Shown here piece by piece: positions 1 to 18,851 of a stretch of 64,000 nucleotides of DNA. Position 1 is the first letter of the stretch. Every line of letters begins with the position of its first letter. The stretch lies in the NCBI GenBank assembly GCA_945873125.1, contig CAMCBV010000009.1, positions 1-64,000 of the forward strand, in the 5' to 3' direction. This DNA is from Prosthecobacter debontii (lineage in GTDB: Bacteria > Verrucomicrobiota > Verrucomicrobiia > Verrucomicrobiales > Akkermansiaceae). A program made the translations under genes and the position numbers. The notes beneath the pieces were generated by a model. That model had not been told where the DNA came from and made no database searches. It saw only the letters and a program-made list of their open reading frames with translations.

Positions 1-149
1 CAAGGTGAAGGCTCTTCTGCGCAAGGCCGAAGCCCGCACCAACGAAGCCCTCCTCTTGGCAATTGGAGACGCTCTCTCACAGGTAACCCAAAAAGACGCC
101 ACCAATTGGTTTACCCATTGCGGCTACAGTTTTATTTAAAATGCTCTAG
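1..149 (+). mobile_element. Right end of an IS630-type insertion sequence (partial)
   Basis: The first 139 bases encode the C-terminus of an IS630-type transposase. The reading of the facing methyltransferase gene breaks immediately after this, at the CTAG tetranucleotide 146-149. IS630/Tc1 elements insert at TA, often within CTAG, so the element boundary is placed at that motif. Only one end lies in the window, so the terminal inverted repeat cannot be compared with its partner. Confidence 0.7.
2..139 (+). CDS. IS630 family transposase, C-terminal fragment (runs off left edge)
   Basis: The frame opening at base 2 reads KVKALLRKAEARTNEALLLA and ends GDALSQVTQKDATNWFTHCGYSFI before TAA at 137-139. 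This matches the usual tail of IS630 transposases: a basic helix, then an acidic-box IGDALxxxTxxD segment and a terminal NWFxHCGY. The DDE catalytic residues would lie left of the window. The stop overlaps by three bases (136-138) the stop codon of the facing minus-strand methyltransferase gene, because that gene now terminates inside the insertion. Whether the transposase is intact cannot be judged. Confidence 0.75.
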   Translation, partial: KVKALLRKAEARTNEALLLAIGDALSQVTQKDATNWFTHCGYSFI

Positions 150-3100
150 TCCCATCAATGACTGGTTGAAAATGTTTTGTCCGCGCCTCATTGCACACAA
201 AACTCGTCCGATCAAGAGTCTGAATCCCAAAGTAGGCACCACAGTAATTTCCCAACGGATGCGAAACTGAATCAATTGCATTTAAGACAACGGCAAACGA
301 TTCGTTCACGTCGAGTTCCAATTCATAGCTTGGAGGAACGATCCGTTCAGGCGGCGTCATACGCCAACGCAGCGTCGCGAAGAGATCCTCGTTATTGTTC
401 ATTGGTGCTGATCGGATTGGACCGAGAGCAGTAATGTCAGGAGATTCACGTTTCCTCCAAATGCTAACAGCATTATCCACAGCCTGACCGGGAAATACTG
501 GATAGTAGAACAAAAGGAACGCTAGAGGCTGTGATTCCGTAAGAAGTAATTTTCTCAGGGCTGCGGAATATTTATTTTTGAGGAATGTGTTGGGCGTAAT
601 GAAAGCTAATACGCCACCGGGACAAAGCACTCGTAGTGACGCTTCGAAAAACACCTGGTACAGATCGACTTTGTATTGAGCGGAAACATATCGCTCTCGC
701 CACTCCGTGAGCTGTGATCCTGTCAGTCCTAATGCTTGAAGGAGGACATACGGCGGATTCCCAATAACCACATCGAAACCGCTATCCACCTCTCTCGCAG
801 CCGATTCCGTCAACTCGGACTGGCCAGTGGTTTCATTGATAATGCCGAGGTTGCCCCGTAAGGTCGCGGGAGTTGCCGGGCTATCCGTGCGGACTTTTCC
901 AATGGGTAAGCCAAACATCCATTCCGAATCGAAGAATGGAGCGAAGTCGTTTTGGTCGTAGGGATCCCAGTCCGCGAGTTTGGCGGCGGCGGGGGCATCC
1001 ATGCCGGTTTTTGCGAGGACGGCTCCGAGTTCGGCGCGGATCCGCTGATCCTTTTCCTTGCAGGCGCGTTTGTTGCTTGGATCGCGGGCGTTGAAGTGAT
1101 CGTGGCGTACATCCTGAAGGCGTTGTTTAAGTAGTTTCACCTGCTCGTGGCTGGCGGCATCGCCTTCGAAGAAGCTGGCCTGTTTGAGTTTCGGTCGCGG
1201 GATTGGGATTAGCGAATCCGCGGCGACAAGGCGGGTTTCGAGGTTGGGCAGCGGGCGGACGCCGAGGTTGCTTTCCTCCGGAAGGACGCGCTGATCCACT
1301 ACGAGGGCGATGAAGAATCGTAGCTTGGCGATCTGGACGGCGACGGGCTGAATGTCCACGCCGTAGATGGCGTTTTCGATTAGGTAGAGTTTCCTGCCGT
1401 AATCGGAGGAATTGAACTCGAAGGTGTCATTGATTTCATTGAGCCGTTGTTGGCGGGTTTCCCTGTCGCCAGATTGGAAGGCGGCCTCGGTCTCGATGAG
1501 GGCGCGTTGCCGCTGCACCTCGCGCCAGCGTTCGTTTTCGTCATCGAGTTTCTTGAGCAGATCCACCAAGCGGTGGAGCGCACCCATGGGGAAAGCTCCG
1601 GAGCCGCAAGCGGGATCGAGGATTTTCACGCGGCCAATGGCGTCGATGAGGGCGGCGCGGGTGGCGGGCTGGATTTCCTTGAGGGTGGCCTTGTTGGAAA
1701 AGAGATCCTCCAGCGCGGCCTTGCACTTGGGAACCTGGGTGGTGAGGTAGGATTTCAAGGACTCATCCACCATGTAGGAGACGATCTCCCGGGGCGTGTA
1801 AAAGGCACCGAGAGCCTTACGGGCGGTGGTCTTGGTGTCCTCGTTGTAGGAGGCGAGGAGGTTCTCGAAGACTTTTCCCAACAGCTCGGGGTCGAGGGCA
1901 ATTTCCTCTTCGAGCGGGGTGTTTTCCTCGATGGTGAACTTGTAGCGGGAGAGGATTTCGATGAGGCCGCGAACCTTGGCTTTCTTCGAGCGGGCGGTCT
2001 TTTTGGTTTCTTCGCCATAGTCTTTGGAAAGATCCACGTTCCGTTCGGAGCCGAAGAAGAGATCGTTCGGGAGTAGGCAGGAGAGCTTTGGATTGTCGGA
2101 GAAGCCGTCGAGGATGGTGTTGTCGGTTTTTTTGCCGCTCTTGTCATCTAGGCAATCGAAGAGTCCGCCGTTGAGGAACGGGACACGCTTCGAGATGGCT
2201 GTCCACTCGGAGGGATTGTGAAAGGTGGATTCATGCCGCCAGAGTGTGGTGATACCGAAGTTGGGATCGAAGCGATCGCCTTCCTTTTTCCGCTCACGAA
2301 AGCCGCGCTGCTCGGGCGGCATGTTGAGGGTGCCGAAGAAGAGGTTCTGAAGGACGGCGTGGTAGTAGGCGGGTGAGGAATCGGGTTTCGTGGAGTCGGT
2401 GGACGGGTTGAAATCCTTGATGAGTTTTTTCAGGGTGTGTGCGCGGAAGAGATCGGCGGGTATGAGGCGTTTCTCGACCAGGAACCAGCAGAAGATGATC
2501 CGGGTGAGCAGGCGGATGAGGAAGAGGGATTTCTCCTGCTCGGTATCGCAATGCTCGGGCAGGCGGATAATACCGTCCTCGACCTGATGCTGCGCCCAGA
2601 AATACCAGTCGGCGATCTCGCGGTAGAAGGCGTTCGAGAGCGCGTAGGAATCCAGTTTCTTTTCCCAAGCGGCGTGGAGTTTGACGAAGTTCGGTATTTC
2701 ATCGAACTCGCGCAACGACGGCAGGGAGAAGTCATTGAGGATTTCGATATGGGCGCGGATCGGATCGGCGCAGCGGATGTCCTTGATGAGGGTGGCCTTG
2801 TCGAGAACGTCCTTGGTGGAATCCCGTTTGTTGAGCCGACGCCGAATGATCGCGATGGAGGTGAGGGGTTCGTCCTTTTCGCCATGACGAAAAAGAACGA
2901 TGGATGGCATAGGCAAGGGCTTATTGATGAGCCGTGCAAAGGTTGTGAGTTCACCGCGGGTGTAGGTTCCGTGGGGCAAATCGACGGCGAAGAAAATGTA
3001 GGACTGAATGCGCTGGGTGTCGACAGTGGTGGTGGAGTCGAACATATCGATGTGTTTCGATAGCTCCGCGTCTCCAATCTGGAAAATGAGATGAAGGGAC

Positions 3101-3306
3101 TTTATGCGTCGAAATTCTTTCTCCTCCTTCGCTGTGAGAGGCTTGGATGAATTAGCCGCAATTTTTAGGAACTCATCGAGATCCCAGGATGCTGTGCGCT
3201 CTGATTCGTAGCCCAGCGTGTTGAACAGAGCCTTGCCTGACTTCGCCAAGCTACCTGTTGCAAGGTCAGCAAGTGCTAGTTGGATGGATTCGCGTAGATC
3301 TGACAT
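136..3306 (-). CDS. Eco57I/PglX-like adenine-specific DNA methyltransferase, 3' end truncated by IS630
   Basis: A class I SAM-dependent DNA methyltransferase of the Eco57I/type IIG-PglX kind. The start is the ATG at 3306 (MSDLRESIQL); an upstream TTG at 3351 would overlap the preceding gene. A long N-terminal region is followed by GAFYTPREIV (about residue 500), SAM-binding motif I DPACGSGAF (about 565) and catalytic motif IV DVVIGNPPYV (about 845). N-PP-Y predicts N6-adenine methylation. In relatives a target-recognition region begins with a PVIDGRD-type phrase. Here the protein reads QPVIDG and then TRAF-stop, and the last codons fall in the IS630 end. The product therefore probably lacks its target-recognition domain and may be inactive. 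It is the last gene of a minus-strand operon with the AlbA_2 regulator (27 bp gap) and the PLD-helicase. Confidence 0.85.
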   Translation of the reverse strand: MSDLRESIQLALADLATGSLAKSGKALFNTLGYESERTASWDLDEFLKIAANSSKPLTAKEEKEFRRIKSLHLIFQIGDAELSKHIDMFDSTTTVDTQRIQSYIFFAVDLPHGTYTRGELTTFARLINKPLPMPSIVLFRHGEKDEPLTSIAIIRRRLNKRDSTKDVLDKATLIKDIRCADPIRAHIEILNDFSLPSLREFDEIPNFVKLHAAWEKKLDSYALSNAFYREIADWYFWAQHQVEDGIIRLPEHCDTEQEKSLFLIRLLTRIIFCWFLVEKRLIPADLFRAHTLKKLIKDFNPSTDSTKPDSSPAYYHAVLQNLFFGTLNMPPEQRGFRERKKEGDRFDPNFGITTLWRHESTFHNPSEWTAISKRVPFLNGGLFDCLDDKSGKKTDNTILDGFSDNPKLSCLLPNDLFFGSERNVDLSKDYGEETKKTARSKKAKVRGLIEILSRYKFTIEENTPLEEEIALDPELLGKVFENLLASYNEDTKTTARKALGAFYTPREIVSYMVDESLKSYLTTQVPKCKAALEDLFSNKATLKEIQPATRAALIDAIGRVKILDPACGSGAFPMGALHRLVDLLKKLDDENERWREVQRQRALIETEAAFQSGDRETRQQRLNEINDTFEFNSSDYGRKLYLIENAIYGVDIQPVAVQIAKLRFFIALVVDQRVLPEESNLGVRPLPNLETRLVAADSLIPIPRPKLKQASFFEGDAASHEQVKLLKQRLQDVRHDHFNARDPSNKRACKEKDQRIRAELGAVLAKTGMDAPAAAKLADWDPYDQNDFAPFFDSEWMFGLPIGKVRTDSPATPATLRGNLGIINETTGQSELTESAAREVDSGFDVVIGNPPYVLLQALGLTGSQLTEWRERYVSAQYKVDLYQVFFEASLRVLCPGGVLAFITPNTFLKNKYSAALRKLLLTESQPLAFLLFYYPVFPGQAVDNAVSIWRKRESPDITALGPIRSAPMNNNEDLFATLRWRMTPPERIVPPSYELELDVNESFAVVLNAIDSVSHPLGNYCGAYFGIQTLDRTSFVCNEARTKHFQPVIDGTRAF

Positions 3307-3332
3307 CGGAAAAAAGATTGAAGGTTGAATTT

Positions 3333-4706
3333 TTATGATACTACTTCCCAATGGCCGCCCTTTGCTGGGCCGATACGGCGGATGTATCCCCCTTGTTGAA
3401 GATTTTTGATCGTGCGTTCAATGGAGCGCTCGGTGACTCCAATGGCGTTAGCGAGTTCTGGGATGGTGATCAGAGCGTTGGCAGTCATCAGAGCGACGAT
3501 TTTCCCCGACGTTTTCCCCGACGTTTTCCCCGACGTTTTTTGATCTCCTCCTGTCAGGGTTTCGCCTTTGGATGTGGTGGCGATGGCCTTGAGGTATTCC
3601 GGCGAGAACGGGAATTCGATCCACAGGTCATTCGGCTTGTAGTCGATGATCGGGGTGGGTGTCCCAGCCTTTTGGCAGGCTTCAAAAATGCGTTGGATAC
3701 CGCGTCCCCAGGTTTCGATTTCGCCGGCTCGGAAGAATGCGTTCGCGATGTCGGGATTGAAAGGTGTGGAAGCATGATCCGCCAGCAGGCTTTCCGATGT
3801 CCAGCCTTCCGGCAGGACGGCGGGGTTCCAGATTCTCAAACGGTCTTCATAAGCTCGGATCTGCACGGGTGCGCCAACGGCGTAATCCCGATGCACGAGT
3901 GCGTTCAAAATGGCCTCGCGCAGTGCCACATCAGGCACAGGGTAGCGTTCGATGCGATGGATGCCATCGTAGGTGATGGCGGCCTTGAGATATTTGGTTC
4001 TAACAAGATCGATGGTTTTGGCACTTTGCTCGAAGAGATTACCATGCACCTCGTCGTGGTATGCAAACTCCGCAGCCGTGCGGAAGTAACCGATCTTGAC
4101 GAAGGCTCCGGTGACGAAGTGTTCCGGGTCGTGATGGAAGAGAAGGAGAGCGGCGCGTTTGAGGTAGGTGCCCTCGGTGAGTTTGAGTTTATCGATCAGA
4201 GCGGTGTCCGACACGCGGAGGTCAGCGGGATCGAGTCTTCCACTGCGTTCGGCGAGTTTGCGGAATTGCTTGATAGCGGTGCCTGACAAGTCGGTTGCCT
4301 TCACCTTCGGCACTGGGACGCTGTCCCAAGTTCTCCCTTGCTTGCGCAAGAGGAAGCGGTCGAGGGCTGCGCCCTTGAGCTCCTGCAAAGTGCTGCCGCT
4401 GCGGATGTAGTAGTGACCCCGGTAGCTGATGGGGTTCGGGTAGGAATCGACTTCGATGGCGATCCATGGCTTGCCCTTGGTGTGATGGAGATTGACCGCT
4501 ACGAGGATTCCCAAGAGATCACGGATTTTGTTAGGCAGGTCTTCGAGTAACTTCGAGGCGTCCGCCAAGCCGACGATCTCGCCTTTGTCGTTGCGCCCGA
4601 TTTCCAAGCGCCCCCCTTCCGCGTTGGCGAATCCCGAAACCCAACGGAGAAGGTCGTCGCGCCACGACTCCTTCCATTCGGCGTGCTGGGATTCAAATTG
4701 GCTCAT
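3333..4706 (-). CDS. AlbA_2 (Schlafen-type) domain / HATPase_c_4 / winged-helix putative regulator
   Basis: A 457-residue protein of the family often annotated as ATP-binding protein or putative transcriptional regulator. The N-terminal AlbA_2 domain is visible as EWKESW followed by GFANAEGGRLEIG (residues 10-45). The central HATPase_c_4-like region has LREAILNALVHRDYAVG and GRGIQRIFEAC (about 260-345). The C-terminus (after about 400) is a winged helix, ITIPELANAIGVTERSIERT. A Thr-Ser-Gly-Lys tetrapeptide is repeated just before the winged helix. The gene lies 27 bp downstream of the helicase and 26 bp upstream of the methyltransferase ATG, so the three are probably co-transcribed. Such proteins are common companions of restriction and defence genes; a regulatory role is inference. 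Confidence 0.8.
   Translation of the reverse strand: MSQFESQHAEWKESWRDDLLRWVSGFANAEGGRLEIGRNDKGEIVGLADASKLLEDLPNKIRDLLGILVAVNLHHTKGKPWIAIEVDSYPNPISYRGHYYIRSGSTLQELKGAALDRFLLRKQGRTWDSVPVPKVKATDLSGTAIKQFRKLAERSGRLDPADLRVSDTALIDKLKLTEGTYLKRAALLLFHHDPEHFVTGAFVKIGYFRTAAEFAYHDEVHGNLFEQSAKTIDLVRTKYLKAAITYDGIHRIERYPVPDVALREAILNALVHRDYAVGAPVQIRAYEDRLRIWNPAVLPEGWTSESLLADHASTPFNPDIANAFFRAGEIETWGRGIQRIFEACQKAGTPTPIIDYKPNDLWIEFPFSPEYLKAIATTSKGETLTGGDQKTSGKTSGKTSGKIVALMTANALITIPELANAIGVTERSIERTIKNLQQGGYIRRIGPAKGGHWEVVS
3496..3540 (-). repeat. 12-bp tandem repeat encoding a TSGK linker
   Basis: Almost four copies of a 12-bp unit (gacgttttcccc on the plus strand) lie in frame in the AlbA_2 regulator and encode repeated TSGK between the ATPase-like domain and the winged helix. 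In-frame 12-mers can change copy number by slippage without breaking the gene. Similar EKTxEKT linkers are frequent in this family. Confidence 0.8.
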
Positions 4707-4733
4707 TGGGTGTAAATCGTGTGGGGTTTGAGT

Positions 4734-7700
4734 TCAGGATTGCGAACCCATGATCACAAGCCAAGTGACAAGTTCCATGTCGTCGGAGGATGTGGGGGTT
4801 TCTGAGGCTGTGGGTAGCAAGCCATCCCGGCCTGAGAGTAGAGAGGATGTTGCGCGACGGGCGAAGGTGCGCTTGATGGATTCCATCGCAGAGTCTAAGA
4901 GATTCGATTCGTGGCTCATGTCGGAGCCGTTGGTGGTGCGGGTATCGAAGGCATCGCAGAGATCGGTAAAGGCGCTGACGTGACCTGCGGCGAGTGCGCG
5001 GAAGAGTTCCAAGCACTGTTTCGGCTGCATGAAGGTGAGGCGGACGTTTCCGTCATCCAGAACATAGACGAGGTAGAAGGGCGCGAGTGGGTTTACCTCC
5101 GTGGGTCGCTTGTTGTCCCGCTGGCGTAGGCAGAACAAAATCCCCGGCTGAGACACCGGTAATTGAGGATCGGGCGGCACGACTGCGAAAAGCCCGAGTT
5201 CGGCAGTTTCGAGAAGTTCGCGGTTGTTTTCGAGGAAGCGGAGCAGGTCGAGCCGGAAGTCTGTGAGCGAGAAGTCGGCGAGTGAGATTCCATCGGGATC
5301 TTCCTCGTCAAAATCGACAACGCCCTTTTGCAAGTCCTGAAGTTGCTTGTTGCGGTAATGGAGATCCGCCTTGATCAAATCTTCGATTTGATCGGAGGCA
5401 AGGAGATTGTCCTCACCGGAGGCTGTTAGATCGACGAGCGCCATGCGGTCTTCCACCCGGTTCTTGACGTTGAGGTAAGCGTCGAGGTCTTTCGTCGGCC
5501 AGAAATTGACGAGTGAAACGGATTTGTTGCGTGAGCCGATCCGGTCAATCCGGCCAAAGCGCTGGATGATTCTAACAGGATTCCAGTGGATGTCGTAGTT
5601 AATGAGGAGGTCGCAGTCCTGGAGGTTCTGGCCTTCCGAAATGCAGTCTGTCGCGATGAGGAGGTCGATTTCCTCATCCTGAGGAAGTTCCGGCTGTCGA
5701 TCGCGTTTTTTCGAGATCGGAGAGAAGTTGGTGAGGATGTGTTCGAGATCCACTTTGCCGAGCGATGCCTTGTATTGGCCTCCGCCGCAGACAAGCGCGG
5801 TGTGGATGCCGAGCGATTCCTTTGCCCACCCGGCGAGGTTGTCATGGAGGTAACGGGCGGTATCGGCAAAGGCGGTGAAAAGCAGGACTTTCCGAACGGG
5901 TTTGCCATCAATGTTCTCTGCCGGCTTTGTGACCTTGGCTGTGATGAGTTCCTTGACGCGTGCGAGCTTGGCATCGCGGATGGGAACCACTGGGCGGGAG
6001 TGGTCTAACAAATTCTGGAGCTGCGCCCGGTCTTGGCGAACTGCAAGCAACCAATCCGGAAGATTGAGGTGGGCGAGGTTGATCTTGTGCTTGCCACCGA
6101 TTTCGAGGTCTTCCGGGTCGAGATCCAGATCGTCGAAGTCGTCTTCGGAGAGATTGGCGAAATCCAGCGATGGGTTATTGTCCCGCTTCTCCTCGAAAGC
6201 CCGGATCTTGGATTCCAACTTGTCGATTTTTTCGATGGTTCTTTCAAGCGTAAGCCGGAAGGAATCGATGGAGCTTTCCAGGCGTTTGAGGAAGTTGATC
6301 TTCATCATGCAGATGAGAATCCGTTCGCGGCCTTCCTGGTTGAAGTTCCCGATCTTCGCTGCGTATTTCGCAAGAACTTCAGGGGGGAGGTTCTTCTTCA
6401 GCTTGGTGCTGGGATGGTAGAGGCTGAGTTTGAGATCGCTGATTTTCTGGTCGAGTTCCTCGAAAGAAATGAAGTCGTTCAGGAGATCAATGTGCGGGTA
6501 TTCCGCAGTGGGTTTCTCACGCTTGGGGAAACCACCCAGGCGTTCCATTTCTTTTGCGTAGTAGCGTTTGATCTGAGAGCGCGAGCGGGCGATGGAGAGT
6601 CCGTCGAGCAGTTTGAAGAAATCGCTGCCGAGTTCGTGGATGAGGTCGCGGGCTTTACGCTCGTTGGCAGGTTTCTTCGTCCAGTTGGTGAACTTGGCCT
6701 GAGCTTTCCGGGTGGTTTCCTTGATGCTGGGGATACCTAGCTTCTCCTTGAATACCCCGTCATACTCACCGCTGCTATCACGTGCGACATCGCCGCCGGC
6801 AATGAAGGAGATCTGGTTTCGTAGGTCGGCGATCTGGTTGTTGACCGGAGTGGCCGATAGAAGAAGCACTTTGGTTTTTTGTCCTTTCTGGATGACCTCC
6901 TCCAGCAGGCGCTCGTAGCGTGTGCGTCGGGGCGTGCCATCCTCTCTTGCTTTGCCGACGGCGTTGTTCCTGAAATTGTGAGATTCATCGATGACGATCA
7001 GGCTGTAGTTGTGCCAGTTGAAGTTCGCGAGGTCGATGTCCCCGGTGAGGCCGCTTGTGCGGGAAAGGTCGGTGTGGGACACCACATCGAATCCGAAGCC
7101 GTCTTCCAACAGTGGATTGAGCTTGCTGTTAGATCGGAATACCGTCCAGTTCGGGCGGAGCTTCTTCGGGCAAATCACGAGGACTCGTTCGTTGCGGAGT
7201 TCGAAGTATTTGATGACGGCGAGGGCTTCAAAAGTCTTCCCTAACCCGACACTATCGGCGAGGATACAACCGTTGAATTCAAGCAGTTTATTGATCGCTC
7301 CTTTAGCTCCATCGCGCTGAAAGGAGTAGAGCATTTTCCAGACTTGGGATTCCAGCAGTGTGGTGCGCTTGAGTGCGTCGTCCACGTCTTTGGAGCCTTC
7401 GAGTTCATCCCGGAACAAATGGAATAGCGTAAGGAAGTAAATGAACTGAGGCGCATTCGGTGATGCCAAGCGCTTGAGGTAGGTTAGCACTTCCTCTTTC
7501 ACATCCTTGGTGAGCGAGTCATCCCCCCAGACCTCGCTGAACCAGTTCTTGAGATCTTTGCGGTCGCGGTCGGAATCGACCACTAGGTTCAATTCGATGT
7601 TGCTGTTCGTTCCGAGTCCCAACCCAGGCACCGTGAAGTTCGAGCTACCAAGAATGGCACTGGAAGCATTGCCGTTCTCAATGTGGTAGGCTTTACCGTG

Positions 7701-8144
7701 GAGGAAATTCGATTGGCGGATAGAGCGGATCTCCACCATGCGTTCGATCCATTCGGCGCAGGCTTTGGCCGCTGGGCGCTGAGTGAGGGTTTTTGCGATG
7801 GTGATGCCGTGCTCTGTGAGCTTGAAATTCGCCTTCGTTTTGCCGTCGCGATCTACTTCCGTGACGAAGGATGGCTCACCGAAAAGAAACTGGAGCTTGG
7901 CGGCTGATTCGAGCTGCGATGCCAGAGCCTCGTAGGCATGAACGGTGAAATAAGCTGAGACGAAGGAGAGCTGGCTGCCCGGCTGTATCTCCGCTTTGAG
8001 GAAGTCCCCGACGGTACCCCGGTGGGTGCGGTTGTCACGCAATGAGGAGTTTGATTGGGGATGGGCGGGCGGCATGAATGATGAATGAAAATTATTGATT
8101 GGCTCTGATACAGAACAATTAGAGCCAAGCGAAAATTTCACCAT
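4734..8144 (-). CDS. PLD-nuclease / SNF2-like helicase fusion protein (defence-associated)
   Basis: A 1136-residue protein with an N-terminal phospholipase D-like nuclease domain and an SF2/SNF2 helicase. The PLD signature is HGKAYHIENG followed by GSSNFT (about residues 150-170). Helicase motifs follow in order: Walker A DSVGLGKTFEAL (about 297), DESH box VIDESHNFR (about 385), motif III LLSATPVNN (about 430), and motifs V/VI ATDCISEGQNL and QRFGRIDRIG (about 840-870). This fusion is typical of restriction and phage-defence loci that pair a translocating helicase with an Eco57I/PglX-type methyltransferase, as here; the set recalls DISARM and type III/ISP-like logic but matches none exactly. 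The ATG at 8144 is used; an internal ATG at 8075 (MPPAHPQ) is an alternative. Neither has a clear Shine-Dalgarno. It is the first gene of the minus-strand operon. Confidence 0.88.
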   Translation of the reverse strand: MVKFSLGSNCSVSEPINNFHSSFMPPAHPQSNSSLRDNRTHRGTVGDFLKAEIQPGSQLSFVSAYFTVHAYEALASQLESAAKLQFLFGEPSFVTEVDRDGKTKANFKLTEHGITIAKTLTQRPAAKACAEWIERMVEIRSIRQSNFLHGKAYHIENGNASSAILGSSNFTVPGLGLGTNSNIELNLVVDSDRDRKDLKNWFSEVWGDDSLTKDVKEEVLTYLKRLASPNAPQFIYFLTLFHLFRDELEGSKDVDDALKRTTLLESQVWKMLYSFQRDGAKGAINKLLEFNGCILADSVGLGKTFEALAVIKYFELRNERVLVICPKKLRPNWTVFRSNSKLNPLLEDGFGFDVVSHTDLSRTSGLTGDIDLANFNWHNYSLIVIDESHNFRNNAVGKAREDGTPRRTRYERLLEEVIQKGQKTKVLLLSATPVNNQIADLRNQISFIAGGDVARDSSGEYDGVFKEKLGIPSIKETTRKAQAKFTNWTKKPANERKARDLIHELGSDFFKLLDGLSIARSRSQIKRYYAKEMERLGGFPKREKPTAEYPHIDLLNDFISFEELDQKISDLKLSLYHPSTKLKKNLPPEVLAKYAAKIGNFNQEGRERILICMMKINFLKRLESSIDSFRLTLERTIEKIDKLESKIRAFEEKRDNNPSLDFANLSEDDFDDLDLDPEDLEIGGKHKINLAHLNLPDWLLAVRQDRAQLQNLLDHSRPVVPIRDAKLARVKELITAKVTKPAENIDGKPVRKVLLFTAFADTARYLHDNLAGWAKESLGIHTALVCGGGQYKASLGKVDLEHILTNFSPISKKRDRQPELPQDEEIDLLIATDCISEGQNLQDCDLLINYDIHWNPVRIIQRFGRIDRIGSRNKSVSLVNFWPTKDLDAYLNVKNRVEDRMALVDLTASGEDNLLASDQIEDLIKADLHYRNKQLQDLQKGVVDFDEEDPDGISLADFSLTDFRLDLLRFLENNRELLETAELGLFAVVPPDPQLPVSQPGILFCLRQRDNKRPTEVNPLAPFYLVYVLDDGNVRLTFMQPKQCLELFRALAAGHVSAFTDLCDAFDTRTTNGSDMSHESNLLDSAMESIKRTFARRATSSLLSGRDGLLPTASETPTSSDDMELVTWLVIMGSQS

Positions 8145-10399: not shown

Positions 10400-11659
10400 T
10401 CATTTCTTGGAGTGTTCTTCCCTATCAGCCCGTTGGGCTTCCAGCAGCATCGCACCGGAAAACCCGGACTCTTTGAACCATTCCAGCATGTCTGCGCCGA
10501 CTGACTCGATCCTTCTAATTTCCTCTTCCTCTGCCTTCTTTTTCTTCTTGGCTGCCTTCGCTGCTTTTTCCTGCGCCTTGCGTTGCCCCGGCGTCTCGAA
10601 TGCAGCCTCCGCCTTGGATGCGTCCGCCTGTAAATGCAGGTAGTGCTTTTCGAGCGTGGAAATTCGGTCGCCAACCCACGAAGACAGCTGCGCAATTCCA
10701 ACCCCGTAGTTGGCAAGGTGGCTCGCATAGCTATGCCTCATCACATGGGCTGTCATGGTCGGACAATTTTTCTTGGCGAACCGGTCGAACATTTTTCGGA
10801 AATCAAAACGGTAACGCCATTTCCCCATTTCCTTATCAGGGCGGAGGCACCATTTCTGATTTTCCCAATCGGGGAAATTCTCGCGAATGAATGTCACGAA
10901 CTCAGGAACCAGCGGGATGATGCGCGAACGCTTGGACTTTGGTACAAAACCCGAAACGGGGTCTTTGGCCGGTATACGGATTTTTCCGTTTGCTAGATCG
11001 AACCATGCTGGCCTTGCCATCGATATTTCCGCCCGGCGCAACCCCGCTCGGAAACCGCAAAGCAGAATGAATTTCAACTCAACGTTGCTCTTCGCCGTTT
11101 CGAGTAGTTCATTCACTTTACCTTTGGCGATCACCACTTCCCGCGATGGTGTTTCCTCAGAGAATTTGGGTGATGTGACACGTAGACCGTTCCATCGAGC
11201 GAACGTGCCAACGCGGGCAACGTATGTCTGTGCTGTGGCCTCGCTTTTCTCCTCGCGGGTTTTTGCGTAGTAAGCCGCAAGATTTTCCGTTGTTATTTCC
11301 TCGGGGTGTAGCACTCCCATGGATTTGGAAAAGTGGGTGACGGCTAGGCGGGCGGTATCCTCTGCCCTTCCCCCAAACCCACCGACCGCACCCAACCTGG
11401 CAGCCTTGTATTTATCAAGCGCCCGATCAATCGGGGTGCGACCTCCTACAACCCGGCCTGTTTTCTTGGCCGTGATTTTCCTCCCCCGCCTTTCATCTGC
11501 CCGCTTGATCGCCTCCGCCGGATCTTCCGTTTCCAAGCTAACCCGAATCTGTTCACCGCCGGCCGAGTAGCGCAACCAGTAGGTTTTCCCTCTCTGAAAA
11601 ATGCCGGGTGCAACGGCCGATTTTGGTGGACGACCAACGGTCGGGGTTTTCTTTGCCAT
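10400..11659 (-). CDS. Tyrosine recombinase/integrase of the genomic island
   Basis: A phage-type integrase of about 419 residues. The catalytic domain shows the first Arg in GFRAGLRRAEIS, then HVMRHSYASH (the HxxR box) and the nucleophile Tyr in LEKHYLHL. The N-terminal half has a SAM-like core-binding domain. The C-terminus carries an unusual Lys/Glu/Ala-rich helix (about 365-385) and about 35 further residues after the Tyr box. The ATG at 11659 is preferred over a TTG six bases upstream. The gene sits 110 bp from the 3' end of tRNA-Val, the classic position for an integrase that uses a tRNA 3' end as attB. It probably integrated the DNA to its left. Confidence 0.9.
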   Translation of the reverse strand: MAKKTPTVGRPPKSAVAPGIFQRGKTYWLRYSAGGEQIRVSLETEDPAEAIKRADERRGRKITAKKTGRVVGGRTPIDRALDKYKAARLGAVGGFGGRAEDTARLAVTHFSKSMGVLHPEEITTENLAAYYAKTREEKSEATAQTYVARVGTFARWNGLRVTSPKFSEETPSREVVIAKGKVNELLETAKSNVELKFILLCGFRAGLRRAEISMARPAWFDLANGKIRIPAKDPVSGFVPKSKRSRIIPLVPEFVTFIRENFPDWENQKWCLRPDKEMGKWRYRFDFRKMFDRFAKKNCPTMTAHVMRHSYASHLANYGVGIAQLSSWVGDRISTLEKHYLHLQADASKAEAAFETPGQRKAQEKAAKAAKKKKKAEEEEIRRIESVGADMLEWFKESGFSGAMLLEAQRADREEHSKK

Positions 11660-11768
11660 GCCCAAGTGTGCTAAACTACTTGTGCTAAATCGAGCAAAAC
11701 TTTTCCTTTTCCTCGGAAACCAAAGGCTCTCTTTTCCTTTCTTATTCAGGGGCGAAATCCCCGGAAAG

Positions 11769-12746: not shown

Positions 12747-15185
12747 TCAGTCCGGAGAAATCTCCAAGCGCGTTGGCCTGCGAAGTCGGATCGTTTCCTC
12801 GATGTTGCCCAGGTCCAAGCTATCAAGAACATTGGTGGAACGGTTCGTCAGGCCGGTTCCGGCGCGCGCCGTGGTGTCATCCGGCAATTCCGTATGATAA
12901 GGATCCACTCCGATCAGCACCAATTGCGCGGGACGGACCGGTATCGTATCCAGTGCGGGAAGATGATTCAGGGTATGCGAAGGATCGATCTCCAGGGAAT
13001 GCGACCCGGAATGGACCCCACAAAACGGCAAGCCTTGGGTACCTTCTCTCATCGACTCGATGATTTGTGTGCTGACCGACTTGGCTATTCCACTCGCGAG
13101 ATCTTCCTTGAGTTCCTGACAATACTCCGTCGAGCGCTGGCCTGAAACCGAACAGATTTTGACATCAACCAAACCGACAGGACGATGAATCCTAGTGGAA
13201 GTGAGTGAGGGACTTTGAATCGCATTCATTGCCGCAAGCCAGACGGGCATTGCCAAATCACGGCTGAAGGCCCCGGGATAAATCGGCTTGCTGTTGCCTT
13301 GAAGAAATCCAGTCCAAACGCCGCAACTCAACCGGCCGTTATATCCCAAAAACCATGCATCAGAAAAATCATGTGTGGTACCACCCTTACCAGCTCCATG
13401 AAACGGCTTGGCAATGAGTTGATCTTTCAAACCTCGCGCACTGCCTTTTTCCATTCCGGACGTCATCATTTGATGAACCTGCCACGCCACCCTTTCATCC
13501 AGAAGACGTCCCGATGGATTCGATGGCGGGGTCATTTCATATACCACCAAACCATTCGCACTCTCGATTCTGGAAACATAGGTGAACTTAGACGGACCTT
13601 TTTTTCCTCCCAGAGGAAAAGTCGAGATCGCGGTCACGGCCTGCTTGAGTGAAACCGGCTCCCAACCCAGCGTCACGCGAGGAAAGACTTCCGCATCCTG
13701 CATCGGAAAACCGAATATTCTAGCGGCATCAATCACCTGTTCGATCCCGATTTCCGTTCCCAACCGAACCGTCGCCGCGATCTTCGAATTCTCAAATGCC
13801 TGCCGCAATGTGATACGTCCTTCATACACAGGTGAGCTGACTTCCATCCCCCACTCGCCCAGAATTCCCTCGCGTCCACTGATCATCACCGCACGGTTAT
13901 CCATCGGCTCATCCTCAAGAATCGATACCGGAGTGTGCTTGCCGGCAAGTCCAAGCGAATAAAGAAATGGAAAAAACGCCGTTCCCAACGGGCGCTGTCC
14001 TTGTTCGATAAAATCATAGGGAACTTGCGCATAGTCCCTACCACCCACGTGAACCAGGACTTCGCCCGACTCATGATCCATCATGAATACCGCACCTTGC
14101 AGATACTCTGGCGCAATCCCATTCTGGTTTTTGACATAATCACCGCGTTTCTGATTCACATAATCCGGATGCTTCTCCGCCTGGTTCAGCGATTCTTGCA
14201 AAGCCTTTTCCGCAGCGAATTGGGCTTCCGCCAAAATGGTTGTATGGATGGTAAAGCCACCGGCCGAGAGCGCGTCACGCCCGAGTGAGGCTCCAACCAC
14301 ATCCGCAATGCGCTCATACAAATGCGATGTCCCGCGTTGCAGGGGCTTGGAATCAAGATCGATAGGCTTGAGCAGCGCTTCCGCATATTCCGAGCGACTC
14401 AACATCCCCTCCTCCCGCATTCGCTTCAGCACCATGTTTCTCGACTTGAGGCTCGACTGCAAATTGTTCAGCGGAGAATTGTTCGTAGGATTTTTAATCA
14501 GCCCGACAATCGTGGCGCATTCCACAAGATTGAGATCCATCGGCTCCTTGCCAAAATAACCCAGAGATGCGGACCTCAATCCGTAAAACCCGCTACCGAA
14601 ATAGATGCGATTGAGATAAAAATCCAAAATCTCTTGTTTGGAATAGCGCTTCTCGATTCGCATCGCCAAAAATGCCTCGACCATTTTCCGCTCGATTCCG
14701 CTCTCACCCTTTGCCAACGCATCCTGTTTCAACGGATACGCATTTCTCGCCAGTTGTTGGGTGATCGTGCTTGCACCTTGGGTGGTCGTTCCCGCCTGAA
14801 AGTTCAGCTTCAAGGCGCGCACAATTCCGATGTAATCCACCCCTTGGTGCTCGTGAAATCTTGAGTCCTCACCTGCTTTCAACGCTCGGATGAATAGCTC
14901 CGGCACATCACTGATCTGCATCACACTTCGGTTCTGAACAAAGATCCGACCAATCTCTTTTCCGTTCCTATCCAGGATCATGCTTGGAATCTCCAAATCG
15001 TTGATCTTTTCCAAATCATACGTCAAAGCGCGTTCCCGATAGGATCTCGTGTATTGCTCCGCATAGAGGTAAGCGACCAAACCCGCGCTCGCAAAGAACA
15101 TGAAGAGCACAAACCAAAATGTTTTGCGCTTGTAGAATCGGCGCTTGCCGCTCTTTCTCCCGTTGCTTTCCTTGTGTTTTACCAT
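12747..15185 (-). CDS. Class A penicillin-binding protein: GT51 glycosyltransferase with a degenerate transpeptidase domain
   Basis: An 812-residue bitopic membrane protein: a Lys/Arg-rich cytosolic start, one transmembrane helix (FWFVLFMFFASAGLVAYLY), then the GT51 domain with EDSRFHEHQG and GASTITQQLARN. These are the intact lipid II polymerase signatures. The penicillin-binding domain keeps the fold but has lost its catalytic motifs. The SxxK site is T402-A-F-F405 in the context PLGTAFFPF. The SxN site is S467-K-I469. The KTG site is K600-G-G602 in GAGKGGTTHD. The codons were read directly. The protein is therefore predicted to polymerize glycan but not crosslink it, and the dead domain may serve as a scaffold or regulator. 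Its ATG overlaps the start codon of the divergent MidA-like gene. Confidence 0.92.
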   Translation of the reverse strand: MVKHKESNGRKSGKRRFYKRKTFWFVLFMFFASAGLVAYLYAEQYTRSYRERALTYDLEKINDLEIPSMILDRNGKEIGRIFVQNRSVMQISDVPELFIRALKAGEDSRFHEHQGVDYIGIVRALKLNFQAGTTTQGASTITQQLARNAYPLKQDALAKGESGIERKMVEAFLAMRIEKRYSKQEILDFYLNRIYFGSGFYGLRSASLGYFGKEPMDLNLVECATIVGLIKNPTNNSPLNNLQSSLKSRNMVLKRMREEGMLSRSEYAEALLKPIDLDSKPLQRGTSHLYERIADVVGASLGRDALSAGGFTIHTTILAEAQFAAEKALQESLNQAEKHPDYVNQKRGDYVKNQNGIAPEYLQGAVFMMDHESGEVLVHVGGRDYAQVPYDFIEQGQRPLGTAFFPFLYSLGLAGKHTPVSILEDEPMDNRAVMISGREGILGEWGMEVSSPVYEGRITLRQAFENSKIAATVRLGTEIGIEQVIDAARIFGFPMQDAEVFPRVTLGWEPVSLKQAVTAISTFPLGGKKGPSKFTYVSRIESANGLVVYEMTPPSNPSGRLLDERVAWQVHQMMTSGMEKGSARGLKDQLIAKPFHGAGKGGTTHDFSDAWFLGYNGRLSCGVWTGFLQGNSKPIYPGAFSRDLAMPVWLAAMNAIQSPSLTSTRIHRPVGLVDVKICSVSGQRSTEYCQELKEDLASGIAKSVSTQIIESMREGTQGLPFCGVHSGSHSLEIDPSHTLNHLPALDTIPVRPAQLVLIGVDPYHTELPDDTTARAGTGLTNRSTNVLDSLDLGNIEETIRLRRPTRLEISPD

Positions 15186-16374
15186 GTCTGAAAACCATCC
15201 AACAACGCCGCATAAAGCTGACGCGCGCTCTGTGGATTATCCGAATCCAGCCCCAGCCGCAACCTCTTCCTGTCTTTTGATAAGGGAAAAAATCGCTGCG
15301 GAACTGGCAAAACAAGGCGCCATCTCTTTTCCCCGTTACCTCGATCTCGCCCTCTATGATCCCGATCATGGCTATTATGCAAGCCGGTCAAGCCAAGTCG
15401 GCCGTGAGGGAGACTTCCTGACGAGCGTAAGTATCGGCCCTCTTTTTGGACAACTTCTCGCCCGCAGAATGGTTCATTGGTGGCAAAGTCATGGAAAACC
15501 CACCGCATGGCGGATACTCGAAATCGGTGCCCACGACGGCAAACTCGCCGCCGATATTTTGGAATCCATCGCCACCCTCTCGGCAGAAGCATGGCACACC
15601 CTCGAATACGCCATCGTGGAGCCCATGCCTTTACTCCGAGAAGCACAAGAGCAACGCATCAAACCCCTCGCCGCGAAACTTCACCTCGCCTGCGATACCC
15701 TGTCGCTCTCTGAAAATCCCCTGCCCGGCATCGCTTTTGGAAATGAAATCCTGGACGCCCTCCCTTTCCATCTTATCCGGCGTTGCGATCACTCTTGGAA
15801 GGAACTCTTTGTCGCCAACAACTTAGAATTCATTACACGGGAGATCGACCCCACATCCGCCCTTGGAATAAAAACCCACACCCTCGGCCATGCGTTTCCT
15901 GAAGATTATCAAACCGAAGTGCGCACCAACTACCTGGAGTTTCTAAGCAAGATATCCCCCTGCATCGGAGATGGGATGCTGCTCTTTATTGATTACGGAT
16001 TCGCCGCACCTGAATACTACGACACGCACCGCACCCGCGGCACCCTGCGAACTTTTTACAAACATCAAGCAGCAGAGGATCCGCTGGTTGATCCGGGAAA
16101 ACGAGATATCACGGCCCATGTCGATTTCACCGATCTCGCGCGCGAGGCAGAAACCATCGGCTGGCAACCCACCCATTTCTCCTCCCAAGGCAGCTACCTC
16201 ACCCACCTCGCTAAGGAGATGATCGAAACCGGTGAATTCAGCGATCCCAAAACCATCGCCCAATTCCGCTCCCTCACCCACCCGGCCCGTCTTGGAGCGA
16301 GTTTTCACGTGATTGAGTTTGAGAATTCGAAAGAGCCGACGCCGCAGGTGATGCATCGGCTTGCGTTGGGGTAG
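15184..16374 (+). CDS. MidA/NDUFAF7-type SAM-dependent protein arginine methyltransferase family
   Basis: A 396-residue member of the MidA (DUF185) family. Visible motifs: entry region YDPDHGYYASR, SAM loop ILEIGAHDGKLAADI, the family hallmark FGNEILDALPFHL, the IDYGFAAPEYY strand and the late box KRDITAHVDFTDLA. The mitochondrial relative NDUFAF7 methylates an arginine of complex I; bacterial targets are mostly unknown. The ATG at 15184 overlaps the PBP start codon on the other strand (the palindrome CATG, 15183-15186). An in-frame ATG at 15145 or GTG at 15232 are alternatives. The promoter must therefore lie within the PBP coding sequence unless the start is further downstream. Confidence 0.88.
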   Translation: MSENHPTTPHKADARSVDYPNPAPAATSSCLLIREKIAAELAKQGAISFPRYLDLALYDPDHGYYASRSSQVGREGDFLTSVSIGPLFGQLLARRMVHWWQSHGKPTAWRILEIGAHDGKLAADILESIATLSAEAWHTLEYAIVEPMPLLREAQEQRIKPLAAKLHLACDTLSLSENPLPGIAFGNEILDALPFHLIRRCDHSWKELFVANNLEFITREIDPTSALGIKTHTLGHAFPEDYQTEVRTNYLEFLSKISPCIGDGMLLFIDYGFAAPEYYDTHRTRGTLRTFYKHQAAEDPLVDPGKRDITAHVDFTDLAREAETIGWQPTHFSSQGSYLTHLAKEMIETGEFSDPKTIAQFRSLTHPARLGASFHVIEFENSKEPTPQVMHRLALG

Positions 16375-16694: not shown

Positions 16695-17744
16695 ATGGAC
16701 GAAGCCTTGCTACAACTGATCCGGGACGCCTTGCAGGGCGTGGCGACGGATGTTTTCTTGCTTGAGGACGAGCAGCCACGCATCCGCAGCGAGGGGAAAG
16801 TGGTTCCGCTTCATCCGGGTCCGGTTCCGCGTTTCGCGATCGAGGGTCTGTGGAAATCCTGCGGGGTCGATCCCAATACCACCAAGGAAGCGGATGTTTC
16901 CTGGCAACTTCCTGAGGGGAAACGCCTGCGCGTGAATCTCTACCACACCCTCGGGCGGCTGGCGGCGGTGATGCGTCCGATCCGAGAGGATATTCCAGCA
17001 CTGAGCCAACTCGCGATGCCATCTGAGCTTCTGGAATCCTGGATGATACGCGGCAACGGCCTCATGCTTGTCACGGGGCCGACGGGTTCCGGCAAATCCA
17101 CCACGGTCGCCGCTTGCCTGAATTGGATCAACGAAAACCAATCAAAACACATCGTGACTTTGGAAGATCCCATCGAGTTCCTTTTCCAAAACGATAACTC
17201 GATGTTCTCTCAACGCGAAATCCGGCTCGATACCGAGAGCTTCGCAAGGGCACTGCGATCCGCTATGCGACAGAGTCCGGATGTCATTTTCCTAGGTGAG
17301 ATCCGCGATACCGAGACGGCGGTAACCGCCCTGCATGCGGCGGAAACTGGGCACCTGGTTGTCTCGACGATGCACAGCGGCGGTGTGGTGGAAACGATTG
17401 AGCGCTTCATCCATCTGTTAGGCGAGAGTGGTGACGGTGCGGTGCAGATGCTCGCCGCGCAACTCATCGGCGTCATTTCCCAACGCCTGCTTCCTAAGTG
17501 TGGTGGCGGGCTTTTTCCAGCCCTCGAATATTTCCAGAATGAGGCTGGTACGCGCCGCTGGATTTTAGAAAAACGGCTGGCCGATCTACAGGATCACATC
17601 AACCGCTCCGACGGCAGCAAGAACTGCTCGGCGCTCAATTATATGGTCGCATCGGTAAAACAGAATTACCTTGAATTAGAAGTCGCACGCGCTGCGTGCT
17701 CGAAGCCACAGGATCTCGACCGAGCGATACGCGGAATCAGTTAA
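16695..17744 (+). CDS. PilT/PilU-family pilus motor ATPase (first copy)
   Basis: A 349-residue secretion-superfamily ATPase. It has Walker A GPTGSGKSTT, the Asp-box segment TLEDPIEFLF, Walker B VIFLGEIRD and the His box VVSTMHSGG. The N-terminal PAS-like domain is shorter and more divergent than in PilT. The C-terminus ends soon after the ATPase core (QRLLPKCGG). It is followed 15 bp later by a second PilT and then a membrane protein, all on the same strand. Two neighbouring retraction ATPases resemble the pilT-pilU arrangement of type IV pili, where one is the main retraction motor and the other its helper. No pilin genes are in the window. Confidence 0.87.
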   Translation: MDEALLQLIRDALQGVATDVFLLEDEQPRIRSEGKVVPLHPGPVPRFAIEGLWKSCGVDPNTTKEADVSWQLPEGKRLRVNLYHTLGRLAAVMRPIREDIPALSQLAMPSELLESWMIRGNGLMLVTGPTGSGKSTTVAACLNWINENQSKHIVTLEDPIEFLFQNDNSMFSQREIRLDTESFARALRSAMRQSPDVIFLGEIRDTETAVTALHAAETGHLVVSTMHSGGVVETIERFIHLLGESGDGAVQMLAAQLIGVISQRLLPKCGGGLFPALEYFQNEAGTRRWILEKRLADLQDHINRSDGSKNCSALNYMVASVKQNYLELEVARAACSKPQDLDRAIRGIS

Positions 17745-17759
17745 AAAACAGAAAATCAC

Positions 17760-18851
17760 ATGCCACGCGAAATCACCGAATATCTGAGAGACACTATCGC
17801 GAGGGGCGGCTCGGATCTGCATCTCAGTGCATGGGCACCCGCCTGTGCCCGGGTGAGCGGATCGCTTGTTTCCCTTGATGAACAACCGCTCGATTCCAGC
17901 ACCGTACGCAATCTTATCATCGATACGCTCAGCGAGGCGCAGCGCGCCCGCCTGGAGGAGGATATGGAACTGGATTACGCGTTGCAGGTGGAAGGAGTCG
18001 GTCGATTCCGCGGCAACGTATACATGGCGCGCGGCAACACAGAGGCAGCGTTCCGTTTCATCAGCGACGAGATCCCGGATCTGGAAGCACTGGGACACCC
18101 ACCAGTGATCAACGATTTCTGCGGAATTCGTGCCGGTCTGGTGCTCGTCACCGGAATCACCGGCTCTGGCAAATCCACCACGCTCGCCTCCATGGTGAAA
18201 CGGATTTCCGACACCCGCAGCGGCGTGATCATCACGATGGAGGATCCGATCGAATACATTTACCAGCACAGTGCCTGCCTCATCAAGCAGCGCGAGGTCG
18301 GCGGCGATACCCGCAGCTTCCCCAAGGCGCTGCGCCAATCGCTGCGGCAGGATCCGGACGTGATCGTTATCTCTGAGCTTCGCGACTTGGAGACGATCCA
18401 GATCGCTATCACGGCGGCTGAAACCGGTCACCTGGTGTTGGCCACACTCCATACCTCGGACGCGCCGCAGAGCATTGACCGCCTCGTGGATATTTTCCCA
18501 CCGGAGCAGCAGCCGCAGATCATCACCCAGCTCGCCGCGGTGCTGGAGGGGATCATTACCCAACGTCTCCTGGCCCGTGCCGATGGCGAAGGACGGATTC
18601 TCGCCACAGAAATCCTACGCCCCAATTACGCGATAAGGACTTGTATCCGCGAGCGCAAAATGGAGCAGGTGGTTGGCCTCATGGAAATCGGCGCCAAGGA
18701 GGGCAACCGCACTATCGACCAAAGTCTCACCGAGCTTTATGAGGCAGGATTGATCACCCGCGAGGAGGCTTTTTTCAATGCCCGCGAGCGTGCCCTTTTC
18801 GCCGAAAAACCCAAGGCCGCAGCTAAACCGAAATCGATCTGGAACACATAA
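17760..18851 (+). CDS. pilT: Type IV pilus retraction ATPase PilT
   Basis: A 363-residue PilT. The N-terminus has the PilT phrase GGSDLHLSAWAPACARVSG. The ATPase core has GITGSGKSTTLAS (Pro of the usual GPTGSGKS replaced by Ile), TMEDPIEYIYQH, Walker B VIVISELRD (usually GEMRD) and the His box LATLHTSDAPQSIDR. The C-terminal AIRxxIRE retraction motif is present as AIRTCIRERK. Length and order fit a functional retraction motor at the cytoplasmic base of type IV pili. It lies 15 bp after the first ATPase and 3 bp before the membrane-protein gene, suggesting a three-gene operon. Confidence 0.9.
   Translation: MPREITEYLRDTIARGGSDLHLSAWAPACARVSGSLVSLDEQPLDSSTVRNLIIDTLSEAQRARLEEDMELDYALQVEGVGRFRGNVYMARGNTEAAFRFISDEIPDLEALGHPPVINDFCGIRAGLVLVTGITGSGKSTTLASMVKRISDTRSGVIITMEDPIEYIYQHSACLIKQREVGGDTRSFPKALRQSLRQDPDVIVISELRDLETIQIAITAAETGHLVLATLHTSDAPQSIDRLVDIFPPEQQPQIITQLAAVLEGIITQRLLARADGEGRILATEILRPNYAIRTCIRERKMEQVVGLMEIGAKEGNRTIDQSLTELYEAGLITREEAFFNARERALFAEKPKAAAKPKSIWNT

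Follow-up and report, generated by a model that had tools for sequence, protein, structure and literature searches.

The class A penicillin-binding protein (PBP) encoded in the window, the 64,000-nucleotide stretch of Prosthecobacter debontii DNA analysed here, is best read as a glycan polymerase that has kept a conserved pseudo-transpeptidase domain and whose strands would be cross-linked by other enzymes, a reading to which we give a probability of about 0.8. Class A PBPs are defined as bifunctional, with a GT51 glycosyltransferase half and a transpeptidase half. Judged from sequence comparison, the loss is wider than a peculiarity of one genome, extending to the whole genus and, more gradually, to a bacterial class that includes Akkermansia. 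The window PBP sits in a 2.88 Mb genome assembly of 83 contigs (94% complete), and its gene is laid out as follows:

12747-15185, minus strand: class A PBP gene with a pseudo-transpeptidase domain, 812 amino acids plus stop (ORF; Pfam PF00912 and a weak PF00905)
15021-15125, minus strand: long N-terminal helix with a predicted membrane anchor, residues 21-55 (AlphaFold2 helix and hydrophobic stretch in the sequence)
14418-14963, minus strand: GT51 glycosyltransferase domain, residues 75-256, catalytic residues intact (PF00912; invariant residues)
13341-14096, minus strand: transpeptidase-fold domain, residues 364-615, catalytically degenerate (PF00905; predicted fold)
13971-13982, minus strand: TAFF, residues 402-405, in place of SxxK (alignment)
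13779-13787, minus strand: SKI, residues 467-469, in place of SxN (alignment)
13380-13388, minus strand: KGG, residues 600-602, in place of KTG (alignment)
12750-13205, minus strand: C-terminal region, residues 661-812, with Cys678, Cys689 and Cys722 followed by a low-confidence tail (genus alignment; pLDDT; dN/dS)

The overall architecture is that of a class A PBP, with a hydrophobic anchor helix at residues 21-55 (read by eye in both sequence and model), a PF00912 match of 189.6 bits against a cut-off of 27 and a PF00905 match of just 31.2 bits against a cut-off of 22.1. The protein scores 394.6 bits with TIGR02074 (PBP_1a_fam), below the cut-off of 508.75, and at 100.2 bits it falls short of the 182.65 bits set for the monofunctional glycosyltransferases of TIGR02070. 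In a phmmer comparison with solved structures, TAFF, SKI and KGG align with GSSFKPF, SRN and GKTGTT of P. aeruginosa PBP1A (4oon), so that the window PBP has no SxxK with nucleophilic Ser and Lys at 402-405, no SxN at 467-469 and neither KTG nor KSG at 600-602. These replacements had been placed accurately, to the residue, by the first-pass annotation, whose description of the GT51 half as intact also holds: every catalytic residue of that half is present, and E106, D107, H113, G137, Q144, K167 and E170 are invariant in 239/239 aligned rows.

Close orthologues (56-79% identity) were found in 35 of the 36 same-genus genomes searched, the exception (G024) being a 57% complete assembly. Across 37 non-identical genus rows Thr402, Ile469 and Lys600 are each present in 37/37, residue 405 is Phe in 34 and Tyr in 3, and position 601 is Gly in 35 and Ser in 2. 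KSG also serves as the third motif in active PBPs (compare GKSGS in L143 and L145), and the third motif alone therefore cannot be called broken in the two genus rows with KSG. The alignment with orthologues from related genomes, proposed as a check in the first-pass annotation, thus finds the motif loss conserved, and a state shared by 37/37 genus rows excludes chance or sequencing error. That annotation had set against its own reading the combination of intact orthologues elsewhere and a sequencing error here; the error falls away, whereas intact orthologues do exist (L049, L159, L160, L095 and L237), which, lying far off in the tree and within groups of TxxK relatives, give no pointer to an error in the window. 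One genus orthologue, L017 (G020:C238), carries an internal TAG close to the beginning of the reading frame, reflecting either a pseudogene or an assembly error, and was kept as a partial row. Beyond the transpeptidase domain, Cys678, Cys689 and Cys722 are invariant in the genus rows (L014-L038) and are followed, within the low-confidence tail, by a conserved LIGxDPY motif.

For the closest genus pairs (dS 0.2-0.7), dN/dS is about 0.02-0.13 in the transpeptidase domain and about 0.02-0.15 in the glycosyltransferase domain, and entropy at the seven residues of the former motifs falls below that of transpeptidase sites drawn at random in sevens (P = 0.005). In every genome pair compared, transpeptidase identity is lower in the pseudo-transpeptidase family than in the intact paralogue. 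On these estimates the pseudo-domain of the window PBP is under strong purifying selection, with a constraint that is nevertheless weaker than that on an active domain. An AlphaFold2 model built from 54 sequences has a mean pLDDT of 86.9 and a pTM of 0.78, with pLDDT below 50 at residues 729-754 and 769-796; in Foldseek and VIA-align comparisons of the model, solved class A PBPs rank first, and its transpeptidase domain superposes on PonA1 with a Z of 39 at about 3 Å over 338-344 residues. The match of the model to solved class A PBPs and the low dN/dS uphold the earlier suggestion that the transpeptidase fold is well kept and under selection.

The history of the loss was followed in a tree of 136 rows (faster alignment, IQ-TREE quick mode, LG+G4, motif columns excluded), in which 111 orthologous rows group together (SH-aLRT 99), Chthoniobacterales records (L091) included, with canonical Verrucomicrobiota class A PBPs as their sister group. 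Residue 402 is Thr in 106 of these 111 rows. The five Ser402 rows fall in two places, namely genus g13 of family f2 (L049, L159 and the identical pair L095/L160) and L237 (G474), the sister of which is the TxxK row L236; all five carry SxxK, SxN and KTG. A single clade of all Thr402 rows, with the Ser402 rows outside it, was rejected by an AU test (p 0.0007, quick tree, LG+G4), which leaves either two reversions or four or more losses in parallel. A basal Thr402 costs 2 changes against 4 for a basal Ser, and parsimony, the sole consideration here, favours regarding the Ser402 rows as probable reversions, the nucleophile having most parsimoniously changed from Ser to Thr once in the family. Lys405 is replaced in 95 family rows, requiring at least 9 changes on the tree, with mostly hydrophobic replacements in the window's family of genomes (f1), and every f1 row of the PBP family, the Akkermansia-named L082-L085 included, has Thr402, a residue other than Lys at 405 and one other than Asn at 469. 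It should be noted that L094, labelled "Akkermansia muciniphila", is placed in family f4 by the tree, is probably misnamed and was excluded as evidence on A. muciniphila.

Changes in the third motif are few and scattered (KGG in the window's genus, KTS/QTS in f6, YNG in L233). KTG is still present in most lineages of the PBP family, as is TxxK together with SxN in several, and some members may therefore still be active to a degree. The pattern as a whole reads as a stepwise, class-wide loss in which Ser gave way to Thr, Lys was replaced repeatedly and KTG probably went last, combined with two reversions or several parallel losses. In family f4, a divergent, long-branched class A PBP (L073, G039:C1:363000-365900) is also degenerate at the three motifs, with GTAFLPL, GKT and GWGGT. 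Matches to plasmid records were all below 60% identity, the five listed lying at 28-32%.

The genomic neighbourhood of the PBP gene includes a gene that is divergently transcribed from it:

15184-16374, plus strand: MidA-like SAM-dependent methyltransferase (PF02636; Pfam)

Its likely start is the ATG at 15184, inside an ORF listed from a TTG at 15145. A PF02636 methyltransferase adjoins the PBP in 25 of the 28 loci compared, among them those of L090, of L092 and of L272, the intact PBP of G051, and the three loci that lack it are Akkermansia-type (L082, L266 and L267). This shared neighbour supports the orthology of the PBP family. The methyltransferase family is known from respiratory complex I assembly, and joint action with the PBP is not claimed. 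If both starts are right, the PBP start on the minus strand and the likely methyltransferase start on the plus strand share a single CATG at 15183-15186. Translations read by eye also identify a large DNA methylase-like gene, an AlbA-type gene and a helicase-like gene at 136-8144 (minus strand) and a tyrosine recombinase-like gene at 10400-11665, which together suggest a putative defence-type island, as well as two tandem PilT/VirB11-type ATPase genes at 16695-18851 (plus strand).

Other enzymes in the same genome could supply the missing step. Three GT51 proteins are encoded there, namely the window PBP, an intact bifunctional PBP at C36 (L059, with GSIFKPF, SRN and KTGTT) and a 577-residue protein at C4. 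The first-pass annotation had reasoned that a separate transpeptidase would be needed and had advised looking for a second bifunctional PBP; the latter is present and intact at C36, with counterparts in most genomes examined, and it is accompanied by three class B PBPs with intact SxxK, SxN and KTG (PF00905) and ten YkuD L,D-transpeptidase matches, at least seven of them with the Cys motif. Two SEDS proteins and two S11 carboxypeptidases complete this inventory. The idea that L,D-transpeptidase number tracks transpeptidase loss was rejected: Verrucomicrobiales have 6-17 YkuD matches whether the PBP is broken or intact (13 in G051, where it is intact), and with counts alike across broken and intact lineages an L,D-transpeptidase partner gains no specific support. 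In five members of the class drawn without the PBP family, such matches number 1-6.

The 577-residue protein (L060, G000:C4:89700-92700, approximately 656-2359, plus strand) has GSAFEPF for SxxK, neither SxN nor KTG, and a shortened transpeptidase half. Relatives at 54-69% identity occur in related genomes, several directly adjoining the intact paralogue, and L060 may possibly represent a second, independent transpeptidase loss. A different situation is found in G274 and G275 (genus g30; 1.5 and 1.6 Mb; about 90% complete), each with one GT51 match, which is the broken orthologue with GTAFIPF, SKI and KTS; an orthologue that is the lone GT51 protein is hard to explain unless its glycosyltransferase half works. 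This makes a strong but not final case that a cell can have the transpeptidase-broken protein as its sole class A polymerase, both g30 assemblies being incomplete, such that another GT51 gene could be missing from them. In G162 the one GT51 match is canonical, with intact motifs.

In the mechanism proposed here, the GT51 domain would polymerise lipid II, as its intact catalytic residues imply, and the transpeptidase domain would be a pseudoenzyme that keeps the fold without the nucleophilic Ser, the SxxK Lys, the SxN Asn and the KTG Thr. Given these losses, it would be expected neither to cross-link stem peptides nor to be acylated by beta-lactams, and cross-links between the strands would be made in trans, by the intact bifunctional PBP, class B PBPs or L,D-transpeptidases. 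The pseudo-domain most likely has a structural or allosteric role: as the selection on it suggests, it may be kept because the glycosyltransferase domain needs it as a partner in this sense, or as a docking surface.

Among the alternative explanations, a transpeptidase domain that is still catalytic in a non-canonical way, in which Thr402 would be the nucleophile and either K468 or K600 the base, would account for Thr402 being fixed in 106/111 family rows instead of randomly replaced, and the relatives that combine TxxK with SxN and KTG would fit a working Thr enzyme there; in the window's genus, however, K405, the SxN Asn and the KTG Thr are all absent together, and the replacements at 405 in its family of genomes are mostly hydrophobic; we regard this explanation as very unlikely. 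Even less probable is a domain decaying without function under relaxed selection. Its lower identity than that of the intact paralogue is what decay would produce, but dN/dS lies far below 1 and near that of the glycosyltransferase domain, the former active-site residues are conserved above the domain average, the predicted fold is kept and the protein is present even in genomes of 1.5-1.8 Mb. The invariance of all GT51 catalytic residues, together with the lack of any other GT51 protein in the G274 and G275 assemblies, weighs against a protein dead in both halves that serves purely as a scaffold for the intact paralogue, a scenario that the paralogue's presence alongside it in most genomes examined would otherwise suit and that we find scarcely credible.

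A further proposal extends the polymerase reading and does not exclude it, casting the pseudo-transpeptidase pocket as a sensor that gates the glycosyltransferase by binding, but not turning over, stem peptide or lipid II. Conservation is higher in the former pocket than elsewhere in the domain, and motif replacements tend to pair (TxxT with GxN; TxxL/F with SxI), but on independent pairs this co-variation does not reach significance (about 3:0 of 11), and conservation alone cannot separate a ligand site from packing; the sensor is thus a tentative idea. It is tempting to go further and to picture a transpeptidase that was retired in steps (Ser to Thr, then Lys, Asn and KTG) and now controls the polymerase as a non-catalytic module, with Ser re-evolving beside a retained Lys in two nested lineages to restore the full motif set, and with the protein as the sole class A PBP of some small-genome species, though as a complete account this is unlikely. 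The polymerase with a conserved pseudo-transpeptidase domain remains the preferred reading.

These results bear on how cell wall synthesis is read from genomes, as genome surveys infer cross-linking ability from the presence of class A PBP genes. If the family is transpeptidase-dead, gene presence overstates that ability for one copy, a canonical copy usually also being present. The passages concerned in PMC8406291 describe class A PBPs as widely lost in the PVC group and count Akkermansia as keeping one and as "PG classic" by aPBP gene presence, and they say nothing on the motifs of the Akkermansia aPBP. In the open-licence literature, covered mainly as titles and abstracts, no paper on a transpeptidase-dead class A PBP family was recognised, which is weak evidence. 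The natural proteins of the family have lost anywhere from none to all three of the motifs, at apparently one locus, and comparing them would allow a test of glycosyltransferase-transpeptidase coupling in class A PBPs, a long-studied question. It also bears on the beta-lactam response of a group that includes a gut commensal, with resistance not being claimed.

Among known systems, the bifunctional class A PBPs (E. coli PBP1a/PBP1b, P. aeruginosa PBP1A and M. tuberculosis PonA1) share the anchor, GT51 domain, linker and transpeptidase fold of the window PBP and are its highest-ranked structural and phmmer matches, but in the window PBP SxxK, SxN and KTG are replaced and neither cross-linking nor penicillin binding is predicted. 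With the monofunctional glycosyltransferases (MtgA, SgtB; TIGR02070) the likeness would lie in GT51 polymerisation without transpeptidation, whereas the window PBP still has a complete domain of transpeptidase fold, about 300 residues long, together with a C-terminal region. Passages of PMC12539705 report that septum formation by C. difficile PBP1 needs the glycosyltransferase while the transpeptidase is dispensable; the transpeptidase-deficient form there is engineered, and growth, according to the same passages, still needs the transpeptidase. The closest experimental parallel is E. coli PBP1b S510A, a transpeptidase-dead form whose glycosyltransferase activity suffices when the L,D-transpeptidase YcbB cross-links (PMC5089857), that is, a class A PBP acting as a polymerase alone with strands cross-linked by another enzyme, as predicted for the window PBP. 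That protein is a laboratory mutant under beta-lactam, whereas the loss in the window's family is natural, fixed and old.
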